From Saccharospirillaceae bacterium (GTDB taxonomy: Bacteria; Pseudomonadota; Gammaproteobacteria; Pseudomonadales; Natronospirillaceae): 33,033 nt of DNA. Positions 23,078-33,033 of the stretch are shown here, one piece after another; the stretch's first letter is position 1, and the number at the start of each line of letters is the position of its first letter. Position numbers and translations under genes: made by a program. A model generated the notes under the pieces. It saw only the letters and a program-made list of their open reading frames with translations, ran no database searches and was not told the origin of the DNA. Location of the stretch: contig SKIB01000116.1 in NCBI GenBank assembly GCA_007116635.1, positions 1 to 33,033 on the forward strand. Reading direction: 5' to 3'.

Positions 23078-23184
23078 TCGAATGGCTGGTTAATGTTTTT
23101 AAATGAAATTGTTTTCATGAAGTGGCTCAATTCTTGATGCAAGGTATTGAGCTTGATAACAATTATAATTTAGGAAGCCTTAAC

Positions 23185-25203
23185 ATGACTCAGATCACCA
23201 GACCCAAAACCCTGTTGGCCGCAGTGGCCGCTGTCTCCGCCATGGGGTTGGCGGCTTGCGACTACAGCAAGTTGCCAGATCAGGGGCATATTCCTCAGCC
23301 CAGTCCAATAGCTCAACCATCCTCATCTGTTGGTGCGGATACCCTACCAACCAGTGTGCCGAGTGTTACCCTGACTCCCACAGCCGAGCCAACCTCGACT
23401 TTGGTACCGTCGCCCTCTCCTTGTAATACGGATGCGACCGATGTTCCAAGGCCAACATCTTCAGCGGGTTGTGGTGGTTCGATGCAACCAATGCCAAGCA
23501 CTTCACCAACGCCCTTACCCATACTCTTGCCCAGTTTTCCTGATTGGCAGCCTCCTACGCCAAAGCCAACCATTCCTGAAGTGCCAATTCCAACGCATCA
23601 GCCCTCGCCCAGTCCAATAGCTGGTCTGATTCGTTTCGAACCAGCTCAACCAGTGAGCTGGTGTCCGACTGAGGATAATTATGATCCACAGGCGACCTAT
23701 CAGACGGGCCAGCTGGTGATTTATCAGCAGGCAATTTATCGTGCAAGCTATAGGGTATCCCCGTACCTAGATTTTTTGCCAGGGCAAGAGGACAGCGGAC
23801 TGTCTGGTCAGCCCAGTAATCCTTGGCAATGGCTCGAGCCGGTTACTGATGATTGGTGTGCTGGTTTGGCAGTGGATGTGCAGGGTAATCTAATGGAGTT
23901 GGGAGGCTGGCCCTTTGTAAGCAACAGGGGGCTGCCTGTGGATTTGGCCGCTAGTCAGCATCGCTTGTCCGCCTATTATCCCGGCTATGCCATTTATTAT
24001 GGGCGTGAGTTCTTGCTTGAACATGTGCCTTTTGAGTCGATTGATGATTTGTTTTATAGCGATGTGCAAGTCAGTGATCAGGGCATTGTTTTGCAAGATG
24101 ATTGGGGCATGATCGAGCGAATCTTTGCGGGTGATAACTTTTACACCCACCTAAGAGGTAACTTCGGACAATTGACTCGGGCCAAGGTGGTACATGATGA
24201 TCAGCGAATTCATTTGCAAATTGGTACTCCTGGTTTGTCCGAGGCCTTGGCTACTGTGATCGCTACTGAGGAGGCTCGTGTTGGTTTTGCTCAGGGCGTT
24301 CGGCAGTTCTTTAATCAATATGCCTTGACCTTTGATGGTCTGCACCTGGATTGGCAATACCCCGAAGATCATTGGTCATTGGTGTGTGGCGGCAATGCAG
24401 AATGCGAACAGCAACACAGGCATGAGGATGCGACAAACATCCTGCTGTTGATGGCGCAGCTGCAGAGGGAAATGGACCTATGGCAGCAAGAGTTTAATCG
24501 ACCATTCTACCTAAGCCTGACCGTGGGTGAGCGGCAGGCCGAGCGCTTACACGCAGCAGATCTTGACTGGCCAGCTTTGATGCCCTTGGTCGATCAGGTG
24601 CATCTCTGGGCGCTGGATTATGCCAAGGGTAGTGACAGTCAGCCTGTGCACCATAGCTCCATTCGTGCCGCCGCACCTGGTGAGCAAAGTGCTGAAGGTC
24701 TGGTGACTAAGGCATTGGCCTTGGGTGCTGATCCCAGTAAGTTGATGCTTTCTGTCGCCAGTCATGCTGTGGGTTGGCAGGGTGTCTCAAGCCCTGAGGC
24801 GGATCCTTTTGCCGGTTTGGCTGAAGCGCCCTTTGGTCGTAGCCCAAATTGTCATGGCTATGCTCTGCTACCCTGCGGCCAGGTCGAGGATGGTATGATC
24901 ACCAGTGCCAAGGTGTACTTCTCGTATCGCTCCGACGGTCAGATCGATCTGGGTTGGCTCGAGTCACAGTTGATCCCGCGAATCAGTCTTGATTGGCAGT
25001 TTGTAGAGGACACTGTTCTTGGGCGCTCATACCTATGGCAGCCAGAATTAGGTCAGTTGATCAGTTTTGAATCACCTGATCTGGTGTTGGCGAAGGGGGA
25101 TCTTATTAGAGAGCATCAGTTGCAAGGCTTGTTCTTAACCGACATTGCGGCCAGTAGTTTTGGCACCGTCAATGTCAGTAATGCAGCCCTAAGACGCCGC
25201 TAA
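23185..25203 (+). CDS. GH18-like lipoprotein with chitin-binding-like module; catalytic Glu replaced by Gln
   Basis: A 672-residue lipoprotein. The signal peptide ends MGLAAC (Cys25, lipobox LAAC) with Asp at +2. A Pro/Ser/Thr-rich linker runs to about residue 155. Residues ~159-230 resemble a CBM5/12 chitin-binding module (ATYQTGQLVIYQQAIYRASY, then PWQWLEPVTDDWC). From ~235 a GH18-like barrel follows. Its active-site motif reads FDGLHLDWQYP: against the family pattern DGxDxDxE, Asp384 and Asp389 remain, the middle Asp is His387 and the catalytic Glu is Gln391 (CAA). The usual MxYD element is WALDYAK and the final barrel Trp motif is LFLTDIA. Hydrolysis is therefore unlikely; a chitin-binding role is inferred. 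The ATG at 23185 has GGAAG upstream; a start at 23122 would spoil the signal peptide. A perfect CRP site lies upstream. Confidence 0.83.
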   Translation: MTQITRPKTLLAAVAAVSAMGLAACDYSKLPDQGHIPQPSPIAQPSSSVGADTLPTSVPSVTLTPTAEPTSTLVPSPSPCNTDATDVPRPTSSAGCGGSMQPMPSTSPTPLPILLPSFPDWQPPTPKPTIPEVPIPTHQPSPSPIAGLIRFEPAQPVSWCPTEDNYDPQATYQTGQLVIYQQAIYRASYRVSPYLDFLPGQEDSGLSGQPSNPWQWLEPVTDDWCAGLAVDVQGNLMELGGWPFVSNRGLPVDLAASQHRLSAYYPGYAIYYGREFLLEHVPFESIDDLFYSDVQVSDQGIVLQDDWGMIERIFAGDNFYTHLRGNFGQLTRAKVVHDDQRIHLQIGTPGLSEALATVIATEEARVGFAQGVRQFFNQYALTFDGLHLDWQYPEDHWSLVCGGNAECEQQHRHEDATNILLLMAQLQREMDLWQQEFNRPFYLSLTVGERQAERLHAADLDWPALMPLVDQVHLWALDYAKGSDSQPVHHSSIRAAAPGEQSAEGLVTKALALGADPSKLMLSVASHAVGWQGVSSPEADPFAGLAEAPFGRSPNCHGYALLPCGQVEDGMITSAKVYFSYRSDGQIDLGWLESQLIPRISLDWQFVEDTVLGRSYLWQPELGQLISFESPDLVLAKGDLIREHQLQGLFLTDIAASSFGTVNVSNAALRRR

Positions 25204-28817: not shown

Positions 28818-30044
28818 ATGGTAAAGCTTGCGCGGAAAAAAATTCTCCTTGGCATTGGTGGTGGTATTGCCGCCTACAAGTCCGCCATGCTGGTGCGCCT
28901 GTTGGTGGCTCAGGGTGCTGAGGTCCGAGTGGTGATGACCAAGGGAGGACAGGCCTTTATCCAGCCCTTAACCCTGCAAGCTCTGTCTGGGCATCCGGTG
29001 CATTGCGAGCTGTTGGACCCAGAGGCCGAAGCCGGCATGGGCCATATCGAATTATCACGCTGGCCGGATTTGATCCTGTTAGCACCAGCCACTGCCAATC
29101 TGCTGGCTCGGTTGGCCGCTGGCATGGCCGATGAGCTGCTGACCACTCTGGTGTTGGCCGCTAAGGTGCCTGTTTGGCTGGCGCCAGCCATGAACCAGCA
29201 AATGTGGCAAGCAGCCGTTACTCAGCGTAACCTGCACAGCCTGACGCAGCTCAATCCGCACTGGCAGTTCCTTGGGCCAGACTCGGGGTCACAGGCCTGC
29301 GGTGAGGTGGGGCCGGGCCGGATGCTGGAGCCGCAGGCCATGGTAGAGGCCATGATTGCGGCCTTAACGGCTGAGGCTTGGCAGCCTTTGGCTGGAAAAA
29401 AGATTCTGTTAACTGCCGGCCCCACGCAAGAGCCATTGGATCCGGTGCGGTTTTTAAGCAACCATAGCAGTGGCAAAATGGGCTATGCTTTAGCCGAGCA
29501 ATGCCAAGCTTTGGGCGCAGATGTGGTGCTCATTTCAGGGCCGGTTGAACTGGCTTGCCCTGCGGGCGTGCAACGCATTAGGGTGCAAACCGCGCGTGAG
29601 ATGCTGGCTGCGGTAGAACAGCATTTGCCTCAGTGTTTCGCCTTCTTTGCCGCGGCTGCGGTGGCCGATTTTTATTTGCCTGAGGTGGCCAAGCACAAGT
29701 TGAAAAAGGCCGAGCAGCAGTTGGACAGTTTGACCCTGAATTTGCTACCCAACCCTGACATTCTAGCCACAGTGGCAGGGCATCAGCAGCGCCCAAGCTG
29801 GGTGATTGGCTTCGCTGCCGAGACGGACAATTTATTGCCACATGCGCGGGCAAAGCGAGTGCGCAAAGGTGCAGATCTGATCCTAGCCAATCAGGTGGGC
29901 ATGTTTGACTCTGGCATGAAGGCTGAAAATAATGCCATCACCCTTATAGCTGACGACCATGAGCACAGTTTTGCCATGCAAGACAAAACCAGCCTGGCCA
30001 AAGAAGTAATGACTTACTTATGCCAGCAAATTTTTAGGAATTGA
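28818..30044 (+). CDS. coaBC: Bifunctional phosphopantothenoylcysteine decarboxylase / phosphopantothenate-cysteine ligase
   Basis: A 408-residue fused CoaBC (Dfp) enzyme of coenzyme A synthesis. The FMN-dependent CoaC half (to about residue 185) has [17 protein letters not shown], the active-site His in [27 protein letters not shown], the substrate-binding PAMNQQMW, and the catalytic Cys in [13 protein letters not shown]. The CoaB half has [20 protein letters not shown] with the [13 protein letters not shown] dimer/nucleotide loop, [19 protein letters not shown] and [12 protein letters not shown]. Length is typical. The stop codon is two bases before the dut ATG, so the genes are tightly coupled. 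No Shine-Dalgarno sequence is clear at its own start. Confidence 0.96.
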
Positions 30045-30046
30045 CG

Positions 30047-30502
30047 ATGAAAAAACGCATTCAGATTCGGGTGCTTGACCAGCGTTTGCTGGACTACGGT
30101 TTGCCGCAAGTGGCGACTGAGGGCAGTGCGGGGGTTGATCTGCGCGCCATCATCGATGCGCCGCTAGAATTAGCGCCTGGGCAGGCAGAACTGATCCCCA
30201 CGGGTATGTCGGTTTATATCCAGGATCCGGGCCTGGCGGCCATGTTGTTGCCTCGTTCGGGGTTGGGGCACAAACACGGCCTGGTGCTGGGTAACTTGGT
30301 GGGACTGATCGATTCCGATTACCAAGGGCCCTTGATGGTGTCCATCTGGAATCGCGGGCACAACAGTTTCACTTTGCAGCCGGGTGAGCGTTTGGCGCAG
30401 ATGATCATTGTGCCTGTGGTGCAGCCCGAGTTTGAGGTAGTCGAGGAATTTAGTGTTTCTGACCGTGGTCAAGGTGGCTTTGGTTCAACAGGTAGAGACT
30501 GA
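30047..30502 (+). CDS. dut: Deoxyuridine 5'-triphosphate nucleotidohydrolase (dUTPase)
   Basis: A 151-residue trimeric dUTPase that turns dUTP into dUMP and pyrophosphate, keeping uracil out of DNA. All five family motifs are present: SAGVDLRA (1, with metal-associated Asp), [11 protein letters not shown] (2), [19 protein letters not shown] (3, catalytic Asp and uracil-pocket Tyr), [12 protein letters not shown] (4) and [11 protein letters not shown] (5, C-terminal lid). The ATG at 30047 has AGGAA upstream; the in-frame TTG at 30041 overlaps the coaBC end and is less likely. It lies 13 bp before the AlgC-like gene, forming the conserved coaBC-dut-algC order. Confidence 0.97.
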
Positions 30503-30515
30503 CTAGGAGTTCAGC

Positions 30516-33005
30516 ATGGCATTTAACAAGGGTGTTACCAGAATTTGGGTGCTACAAATACTAAGCTTGCTGCCGGTTATGCTAGTGGCTGCAGTAATGA
30601 TGCTTTGGTCTCTGGCTGTAATGCAGTCCGAGCAAGAGCAGGAGTTGCTGCAGGCGCAGGATATGCAATTAAATCAGATGCAGCAGGTGTTACACGAACA
30701 TTATCAGCTGCATTCACAAACGGCTAAGGCTCTGGCTTCAACAGATTGGATTGCCGAGCAAATGCTGTTTGAATCCAGTCGGCAAGAAGCAGGAGAGACA
30801 TTGGCTGCAGCCCTGCCTTGGGTCGAGGCCAGTTATCTGATTGCTGCTGACCAAATGATTTCGCGTGATGATCAACTAAGCAGCAATCTTTCTTATCGCG
30901 AGCTTACGGCCATAGATGCAGCTCGAAGAGGGGTTAATACTTTTCCAGAATTATTGCAGCGCCCTGAGGGCGATATTTTATATTGGAGCCTGCCAATACA
31001 TCACCAGACCGGCACATTACTGGGGGCATTGCACTTGGTTATTGCCGCTGATTGGATGTTCGCTCCCTTGCAAGAGCAGGCATCGGAGCTTGGCTCCTTT
31101 CGTTTAATGCAACAATTTCCTGGTGCTGCCCCTCAGGCCATAGTCGAGGTGGGCCAGGGCTTTGGTCCCATACAGAAACTATCCTTACCCCACTCGTATT
31201 GGAGTGCTGAGTTTAGCGCCAGTGCTCAGCCAAGAGAGTTTTTCCCTTTGCTCAACATTGGCTTGCAGTCCATTATTTTACTGTTTGTAATTGCATTGCT
31301 GTGTCAAATCATCGCTGTTCAGCTGGTGAATCGTTGGTATTTGATGGATCTGCAGCGCTTGTCTGGCTGGATGCAGCGGATTGTTCTGGGTCAAAAGACT
31401 GAACTTGGTCAGCCTCACTTTCCCATCTTTGATGATGTCCGTCGTCAGGTTGAGTTGTCCCTGAGTCGAGACGATAAATCCATTTCTGCGGCTAACGATC
31501 TAACCTTTGATGCCGGAAAACTTACCCAGGCTGAATCTGAGTTAGACGAACTATTGCTGGGAGGCCTATTAGCTGGGGAGCCTTCAGTAGCTAATGAAAA
31601 GCCACGCAGTTCTGCCAAGCCCGTGCCTTTACGAGATCAGATTGTTAGGTTTGCCGATATTCGCGGTATTTACGGCGTTGATGTCGATGATTTTCTAGCG
31701 GATGGCTTGGCTCGGGCCATGGCCTCAGAAATGATCGAACAGGGAGAGTTTCGTGTCGTTTTGGCACATGATAACCGACCCAGTTCTCCTGCTTTGTATG
31801 CTTCTTTAGTTGCTGGCTTTACCAAACAAGGCTTGCAGGTGGTGGACTTAGGCCTGCAGCCCTTGCCAGTGCTGCATTTTTATATGCATATGCAAAATGT
31901 GGGTGCTGCGGTTATGGTTACGGCCTCGCAAAGTGCCCCTGAGTTTAACGGTTTTAAATGCTTTTTAGGCCAGCAAGCCTTGGTCGGTATGAATCTTCAG
32001 GCCTTATGGCGAAGAGTGATTAATCAAGATTTTGTCAGTCATGATGGTCATGCCAGTGTACAAAAGGTAGATCCGCAAACCGAGTACATCAAGCAAATGA
32101 TGTCGCAGATAAGGGTTAAACGATTAATTAAGGTCGTGGTTAATTGCAGTGCTGGTGTAAGTACACAGTTAGTTCGCAATTTGTTAACGGCCATGGATGC
32201 TAAGGTGATATTGATTAATGAGCGGTCAGAGGCAAATAAACCCTTGGCTACTCAGCCCTCACACCCTGTTAATATCACGCGGCTCTCTGATGAGGTTAGG
32301 CGCACAGGTGCAGACTTAGGTTTGGCCTATGATCCTGATGCCGACCTACTGGTGATGGTCGATAATCAAGGCCATGTGGTACGTAATGATCTTTTATTGC
32401 AGCTATTGGCTAAAGATCATCTTCGTCGCCAACCAGATGCGACCATCATCTGTGACGCTCGCTGTTCCGAACGACTCATAAGCAGTATCCAGAGCTTTGG
32501 CGGTCAGCCCGTTATTGGCCATACTGAAGTACATCTGTTGCGGCAAAAAATGTTACAAGAGCAAGCCTGTCTGGCGGGTGACAGCCTTGGCCATTTAATG
32601 TTTCCTATCGATTGGCACAGCTACCCAGATGCGCTTTACGCCACAGCACGTATTTTGCAACTTTGGAGTGCAACAGAACAAGATTTTAGTCAATGGACAG
32701 CCATCTGGCCAGCTGACAGTCGCACGCCAGAGTGGCGAGTAACCATCAATGACAAAGATAAGAAACAATTATTAACCAAGCTAAAGCAAAGCTTAATTCA
32801 GTTGCCAGGAGCAAATTTACAAGAGTTAGCAGACGGTATTCGTTTGAACCTTCAGTATGGTTGGTTTCTAATTAGGCCATCACTTGATGCCGATGAGCTC
32901 TGTATGACTTTTGAAGCTGAAAGTGAGTCCCAGCTCTTGCAGCTACAGCGATTGATAGCTGAACAAATTGCCAATGTTAACCCTAAATTAGCTTTACCCT
33001 TTTAA
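30516..33005 (+). CDS. Membrane-anchored AlgC-like phosphomannomutase/phosphoglucomutase with degenerate active site
   Basis: An 829-residue protein at the algC position. Residues ~10-31 and ~246-272 are membrane segments enclosing a ~210-residue periplasmic sensor-like region; a cytoplasmic linker to ~370 leads into an alpha-D-phosphohexomutase fold. AlgC orthologues can carry such an extension. The enzyme loops depart from consensus. The phosphoserine loop TGSHNP reads TASQSA (Ser471 kept, His and Asn lost). The metal loop DGDGDR reads DPDADL (Asp606, 608, 610 kept, Arg lost). The sugar loop GEMSGH reads GDSLGH (688-693). The phosphate loop RxSNTxP reads RPSLDAD (787-793). The early GRDGRLS reads AHDNRPS. 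Mutase activity is therefore doubtful. The gene is intact, with TAGGAG before the ATG. Possible roles: sugar-phosphate binding sensor or partner of a true AlgC elsewhere. Confidence 0.82.
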   Translation: MAFNKGVTRIWVLQILSLLPVMLVAAVMMLWSLAVMQSEQEQELLQAQDMQLNQMQQVLHEHYQLHSQTAKALASTDWIAEQMLFESSRQEAGETLAAALPWVEASYLIAADQMISRDDQLSSNLSYRELTAIDAARRGVNTFPELLQRPEGDILYWSLPIHHQTGTLLGALHLVIAADWMFAPLQEQASELGSFRLMQQFPGAAPQAIVEVGQGFGPIQKLSLPHSYWSAEFSASAQPREFFPLLNIGLQSIILLFVIALLCQIIAVQLVNRWYLMDLQRLSGWMQRIVLGQKTELGQPHFPIFDDVRRQVELSLSRDDKSISAANDLTFDAGKLTQAESELDELLLGGLLAGEPSVANEKPRSSAKPVPLRDQIVRFADIRGIYGVDVDDFLADGLARAMASEMIEQGEFRVVLAHDNRPSSPALYASLVAGFTKQGLQVVDLGLQPLPVLHFYMHMQNVGAAVMVTASQSAPEFNGFKCFLGQQALVGMNLQALWRRVINQDFVSHDGHASVQKVDPQTEYIKQMMSQIRVKRLIKVVVNCSAGVSTQLVRNLLTAMDAKVILINERSEANKPLATQPSHPVNITRLSDEVRRTGADLGLAYDPDADLLVMVDNQGHVVRNDLLLQLLAKDHLRRQPDATIICDARCSERLISSIQSFGGQPVIGHTEVHLLRQKMLQEQACLAGDSLGHLMFPIDWHSYPDALYATARILQLWSATEQDFSQWTAIWPADSRTPEWRVTINDKDKKQLLTKLKQSLIQLPGANLQELADGIRLNLQYGWFLIRPSLDADELCMTFEAESESQLLQLQRLIAEQIANVNPKLALPF

Positions 33006-33016
33006 TGAGAACCGCC

Positions 33017-33033
33017 ATGCCCCTAGATCGTCA
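33017..33033 (+). CDS. argB: Start of probable acetylglutamate kinase gene (partial)
   Basis: Only five codons are inside the window (MPLDR, then the window ends). The call rests on the conserved algC-argB order in gammaproteobacteria and on the similarity to ArgB N-termini of the form M-[TS]-L-[DE]-R. GAGAACC 6-12 bases before the ATG is at most a weak ribosome site. Confidence 0.4.

Follow-up and report, generated by a model that had tools for sequence, protein, structure and literature searches.

What does a gene at the algC locus encode when its reading frame is open from end to end, its phosphohexomutase loops are altered and its N-terminus resembles a membrane sensor? AlgC is known as a sugar-precursor enzyme, making building blocks for surface sugars. 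The window analyzed here is a stretch of 33,033 nucleotides, and the ORF in question (30516..33005, + strand, 829 aa) encodes an AlgC-type PMM/PGM orthologue with an eroded active site. It has an ATG start with AGGAG just 5' of it, and the frame stays open across all 829 codons. The ORF begins 13 bases past the end of dut (30047..30502, +; NF001862 HMM), which is preceded by dfp (coaBC; 28818..30044, +; TIGR00521), the first gene of a conserved neighborhood. The contig ends 28 bases past the stop codon, cutting off a possible next gene of which only the first codons can be read in the sequence (33017..33033, +). In mapped AlgC-bearing relatives (L160, L161, L162, L163) the gene that follows is of the ArgB type, an identity given by HMM (TIGR00761) in G007, G015, G002 and G008. 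Within the order dfp-dut-algC-argB, dfp and dut are therefore present in the window, whereas argB is seen in relatives only, the window contig ending first; in Pseudomonas the order is dut-algC-argB. Among solved chains, residues 365-829 match P. aeruginosa PMM/PGM best (phmmer E 6e-80). Given this alignment and the dfp-dut neighborhood, the window protein is, judged from sequence, an AlgC orthologue at the expected locus, to the extent that the contig covers it.

Pfam PGM_PMM_I-III are matched in the window protein, domain IV not being reported, and its NF046027 score is 282.5 bits against a curated cut-off of 600. A score under an NCBIfam cut-off was rejected as evidence for loss of function, because the intact orthologues of G007 and G009 also fall below this one (460 and 504), which therefore does not discriminate. 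Scans for promoters and terminators turned up no signal clearly stronger than in shuffled sequence, no relatives in viral contigs were confirmed, and the one genome_contigs match, a distant mutase locus in a Ruminococcus MAG, was uninformative. Elsewhere in the window, a 693-aa ORF (23122-25203, +) combines a Pro/Ser/Thr-rich N-terminal part with a glycosyl hydrolase family 18 domain (Pfam PF00704, E 1.9e-31).

The loops were compared in one alignment of the window protein with 107 orthologues (108 in total, 104 of them intact); 80 orthologues were chosen for long frames among the better-scoring matches listed, and 27 from low-score genomes were added to offset that choice. All five loops that the earlier note had described as altered read that way in the window ORF. 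AHDNRPS replaces GRDGRLS at residues 417-423 (31764..31784, +), with D419 and R421 kept; the first Arg of this loop is indeed lost, although it is no family invariant, being R in 51 of 104 intact copies. The phosphoserine loop is TASQSA in place of TGSHNP (469-474; 31920..31937, +), so that the Ser is kept and the His (H472) and Asn are lost, and the metal loop is DPDADL in place of DGDGDR (606-611; 32331..32348, +), with three Asp kept and both Gly and the Arg changed. The alignment thus bears out that the phosphoserine and the three metal ligands remain. In the sugar loop, GDSLGH replaces GEMSGH (688-693; 32577..32594, +), and the Glu contact, which had been called gone, has undergone only the mild change E689D, with S691 changed to Leu and H693 kept. 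The phosphate loop is RPSLDAD in place of RASNTTP (787-793; 32874..32894, +); here R787 is kept, and of the SNT contacts that had been reported missing N790 and T791 are lost but S789 is still there.

The phosphoserine, metal, sugar and phosphate loops by which an active mutase would be recognized are thus all altered. Compared with long intact AlgC proteins of the same order (such as G007, G009 and G003), which share with it two transmembrane segments, linker, mutase and, as far as the contig reaches, gene order, the window copy departs at 10 of 22 scored positions, whereas intact copies depart at 0-3 of 22. When the variable positions are dropped and Thr is allowed for Ser at 691, 18 catalytic positions are left, and 8 of these are changed (H472Q, R611L, K649R, H672V, E689D, S691L, N790L and T791D). 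Changes at positions invariant in the 104 intact copies that the earlier note had left unmentioned are Y380A and G671E, besides K649R and H672V. A PMM/PGM that still works, only more slowly, would fit the retention of the phosphoserine, the metal ligands, R787 and S789, but R611L, K649R, H672V and N790L strike positions identical in 104/104 intact orthologues and T791D one identical in 102/104, and, according to PMC6443537, the loops concerned are those that hold the metal, the sugar hydroxyls O3/O4 and the phosphate throughout the phosphohexomutase superfamily. We regard such residual activity as very improbable.

The changes in the window copy are not the only ones of their kind. In the order sample 206 genomes gave a match; 126 of these were read, and three further genomes (G091, G146, G210) had matched through a CpsG-type gene. 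Among 135 orthologues (15 from the window's family and 120 from outside it), 125 differ at none of the 18 catalytic positions, although 3 of these, from outside the family, are fragmentary on their contigs and lack 9-13 positions; 6 differ at one or two and 4 at six to nine. The last four, called dead copies below, all fall inside the window's family (4/15 against 0/120 elsewhere), so that the close relatives, to which the earlier note had pointed as a check, supply three more: besides the window genome (G000, 8/18) they are G015 (6/18), G002 (9/18) and G008 (9/18). Altogether 15 of the 22 family genomes carry algC, 11 of them in an intact form, with G010 and G021, at 2/18 changed, counted as intact. 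The phosphoserine has become Gly in G008 and Asp in G015, and the two dead copies that lost the phosphoserine also lost a metal Asp. N790 is lost in all four and S691 in three. Outside the family, changes amount to four copies with a single one, H672R.

Two smaller observations belong with this survey. The AlgC proteins of G021 and G010 (L023, L025), from the genus of G015, carry K481R and T791G, which may mark the beginning of such a loss. The substitution H672R occurs in an otherwise intact AlgC active site in four genomes of family f24 (L205, L207, L209, L212).

An AlgC tree built without the active-site columns places the four dead copies on separate branches, its starred branches forcing four changes, and a tree of Rep helicase from the 22 family genomes agrees with separate losses. 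In the AU test the four dead copies as one clade were rejected (p-AU 1e-6), as were the pairs G002 with G008 (p-AU 0.023) and G000 with G008 (0.006), values to be read with caution because G000 and G008 have long branches and the groups were named after the tree was seen. The trees show active-site loss to be separate events on four branches of one family. This pattern bears on a further alternative, that the protein is an enzyme with changed chemistry or substrate (acting on another phosphosugar, or as a phosphatase or bisphosphate synthase), in favor of which the window copy keeps the phosphoserine, three metal Asp, K481 and H693. One shared chemistry should keep a common set of residues, however, and the four copies lost different ones, which disfavors the changed-substrate mutase that the earlier note had allowed for and makes this explanation improbable in our view, though a new chemistry confined to the window copy would escape the argument.

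If catalysis was lost, the work may have passed to another enzyme, and a search of the same genome, also proposed in the earlier note, identified candidates. Besides GlmM (TIGR01455, over cut-off), the window genome encodes a CpsG-type mutase whose loops are in place (683 bits, cut-off 801) and a third mutase truncated at a contig edge. The earlier note had reasoned that a genome making GDP-mannose-type sugars with no other phosphomannomutase would point to an active enzyme; with the CpsG-type mutase and GlmM present, the pseudo-mutase reading is not refuted on this ground, and it gains support from the sequence, from the recurrence and from this second mutase. A CpsG/ManB-type mutase was found in 22/22 family genomes, with its loops in place in all of them except for the phosphate loop in G008, which lies beyond a contig end. 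Across the order the type occurs in 149 of 244 genomes, and because genomes outside the family such as G024, G025, G026 and G031 have it and keep AlgC intact, a second mutase would be permissive but not sufficient for the loss. Demand for the product may also differ. GMP_PMI (TIGR01479) was detected in 20/22 family genomes, 19 over cut-off, including the other three with dead copies; at E <= 1e-40 it was not found in the window genome (97% complete) or in G012. Since no GMP_PMI was found there, the window organism may make little GDP-mannose, with low mannose-1-phosphate demand.

A second mutase and low demand would suit the main rival explanation, that of a redundant gene destined for loss: CpsG/ManB would have taken over, the active site of AlgC would be relaxed, and the dead copies would be functionless snapshots taken before deletion. 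The history of the gene in the family lends this explanation weight. At a threshold of E <= 1e-30, algC is absent from 7/22 family genomes, which fall into 4 separate groups on the Rep tree; at E <= 0.001 each of these genomes shows only two other mutase genes. We probed the dfp-dut regions by tblastn with ten family AlgC proteins and found no algC trace at E <= 0.1 in G001, the sister of G015 on the Rep tree, or in G005, G006 and G011, while G004 and G012 gave single near-chance matches (E 0.07 and 0.09). In G013 a broken algC remnant lies between dut and an ArgB-type gene (L158, 2325-2727); it consists of two short stretches separated by a large deletion, with one stop and a nearly intact metal loop, DGDGDQ. 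An ArgB-type (amino-acid-kinase) gene follows dut in G001 and G005 as well, and a different gene does so in G004 and G011. The gene being missing from 7/22 genomes and broken in one of these, AlgC function appears dispensable in the family. Judging by the G013 remnant, decay does happen in the window's family, and its look is unlike the four open frames; since the metal loop of the remnant is nearly intact, a dead full-length copy is not a necessary step toward deletion. At the dead algC of G008 (L162, 1104-4947) no dut lies between dfp and algC, and no dut match was obtained in that genome (90% complete) at E <= 1e-10.

Whether the dead copies are kept or decaying can be judged further from their substitutions. 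Under free drift about 31 nonsense codons would be expected in the window copy, 15 in G015, 26 in G002 and 38 in G008, and none was observed; the estimate is rough, leaving out indels and taking catalytic residues as freely drifting. At columns outside the loops that are 98% conserved in intact copies, G015, G002 and G008 keep 42/46, and at loop columns of the same threshold 21/29, 20/29 and 20/29, respectively (Fisher p 0.05, 0.025 and 0.025; at a 95% threshold 0.08, 0.12 and 0.027). On this evidence the fold seems to have been preserved in these three while the active site was released from constraint. The window copy keeps 29/46 outside and 19/29 inside the loops, with no selective active-site loss, although 29/46 conserved columns still compares with 46/197 consensus matches in variable columns, which speaks against a redundant gene drifting freely.

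On a fixed tree the active-site branches measure 1.72 for the window copy and 0.65, 0.80 and 0.76 for G015, G002 and G008, against 0-0.17 for intact copies. The mutase-core branch of the window copy is 1.31 against 0.42 for its sister G007 (their Rep branches being 0.53 and 0.36), whereas the core of G008 (0.48) is not faster than its Rep branch (0.57). No branch in the AlgC tree is longer than that of the window copy (3.83), whose fastest part is the N-terminus (2.97 against 1.31 for the mutase core). By these comparisons none of the four is as eroded as the copy in the window, for which decay is a real possibility. The earlier note's argument for selection rather than decay therefore stands in part: the stop-free frames and the active-site-biased loss in three of the four dead copies favor it, while the even erosion of the window copy and the broken remnant in G013 do not, so that decay stays a live rival. 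We nonetheless consider this main rival, in which the dead copies simply await deletion, less likely than the reading preferred below.

The architecture of the protein is the other part of the question. The two-transmembrane N-terminus described earlier is real by hydropathy, with segments at residues ~12-30 (30549..30605, +) and ~253-271 (31272..31328, +), and between them a periplasmic dCache-type sensor domain is predicted at residues ~37-240 (30624..31235, +; model mcc341ab3045a). The N-terminal model (residues 4-338, pLDDT 88.8) comes closest to the KinD sensor domain 4jgq (Z 15.0 over 190 residues, rmsd 3.5) and next to chemoreceptor domains (Z 12-13), so in the model the N-terminus is a dCache fold between two transmembrane helices. 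Pfam dCache_1 was weak in 13/27 orthologues (best E 1e-4) and not reported for the window protein. The likeness to dCache receptors such as KinD and the amino-acid chemoreceptors (Z 12-15, from the predicted model) lies in the periplasmic fold; unlike in those receptors, the cytoplasmic part is a mutase fold and not a kinase or chemotaxis domain. A linker predicted to be disordered (residues 320-365; 31473..31610, +; pLDDT <50 in model mdae2abc9fc14) leads to a four-domain phosphohexomutase fold (residues 372-829; 31629..33002, +) recognized from comparison of the model with 1k35 and from Pfam PGM_PMM_I-III. This part of the full model is confident and matches P. aeruginosa AlgC PMM/PGM (1k35) across the whole domain (Z 50.5, rmsd 1.8, 34% identity over 450 residues), although models from an alignment of mostly intact relatives may look well folded even for a decaying member. 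The window copy differs from 1k35 in its eroded catalytic loops, and the solved AlgC chains cover the mutase part only (463 residues in 1k35).

At least two hydrophobic segments precede the mutase in 27/28 of the first orthologues, so the sensor-like N-terminus is no oddity of the window protein. On that comparison long AlgC proteins in this order normally begin with the sensor part, which is no new fusion; the suggested tie to a membrane sensor is right in that the sensor part is present, but it is an ordinary feature of the long form. The order also contains short AlgC orthologues without it (L033; 19/27 low-score frames are <=521 aa). Of an 11-column N-terminal signature conserved in 70% of intact long forms, the window copy keeps 8, G015 10, G002 9 and G008 7, too few columns for a verdict.

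The linker carries an acidic-hydrophobic motif, about DILDID..D.D.DLLG, that recurs across the order. The pattern, chosen after the linkers were inspected, matches 40/108 orthologues against a shuffle mean of 1.7, and an earlier, cruder one matched 17/108. The motif, a possible docking site, is clear in the dead copies of G015 and G002 and not in those of the window genome or G008, and with only two of four we rejected it as a common retained function.

The reading we prefer, with somewhat more confidence than doubt, is that the pseudo-mutase still folds and has been retained as the cytoplasmic part of a membrane-bound Cache protein, in which it probably serves as a scaffold for binding or regulation. 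On this account mutase catalysis would really be gone from the dead copies, its work would have passed to CpsG/ManB, freeing the AlgC active site, and selection would still keep a membrane Cache receptor with the mutase fold as its binding or regulatory module. In such a protein a small ligand would be sensed on the periplasmic side by the Cache domain, while in the cytoplasm the pseudo-mutase would bind a partner or control it, possibly in a way that still depends on a phosphorylated ligand. Such dependence is conceivable because two of the three metal Asp residues, D606 and D610, persist in all four dead copies together with R787 of the phosphate site; binding of a metal or phosphate ligand may likewise persist, as D419, R421, D606, D610 and R787 are identical in 108/108 copies, dead ones among them. 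The sensing of sugar phosphates suggested in the earlier note is a conceivable role.

Phosphohexomutases without activity have been described in vertebrates. PGM5 (aciculin) is one with a structural role (PMC7761743, PMC5570346), and it differs from the present case as a vertebrate PGM1 paralogue with a largely kept active site, not an orthologue with repeated loss. Herring PGM5 is described in PMC7761743 as inactive with substrate binding retained. PMC8573169 describes GlmM as a binding partner and inhibitor of the membrane cyclase CdaA, a likeness in that a phosphohexomutase fold regulates a membrane signaling protein; unlike the window protein, GlmM is there a phosphoglucosamine mutase of Firmicutes without a sensor domain of its own. 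These examples show that a phosphohexomutase fold can regulate a membrane signaling enzyme (GlmM-CdaA) and can persist when inactive (herring PGM5). Among the matches listed from open-licence PMC literature, which leaves subscription papers outside, we found no account of an inactive AlgC, of recurrent loss or of a Cache domain in AlgC.

Four losses of catalytic residues with the frame and the membrane sensor kept hint at a second, non-enzymatic job, and the dead copies would be natural separation-of-function variants for finding it. They also offer an example of a bacterial metabolic enzyme that has turned into a pseudoenzyme several times under a visible permissive condition, a second mutase in 22/22 family genomes, with outright gene loss and one half-decayed copy available in the same family for comparison. 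A broader proposal is possible, and we advance it tentatively: the long AlgC of this order may be a Cache membrane receptor whose mutase fold doubles as a signaling or scaffold output separable from catalysis, of which four lineages freed by a second mutase independently kept the signaling half only. If this is true, the dead copies would reveal an unrecognized function of ordinary AlgC.
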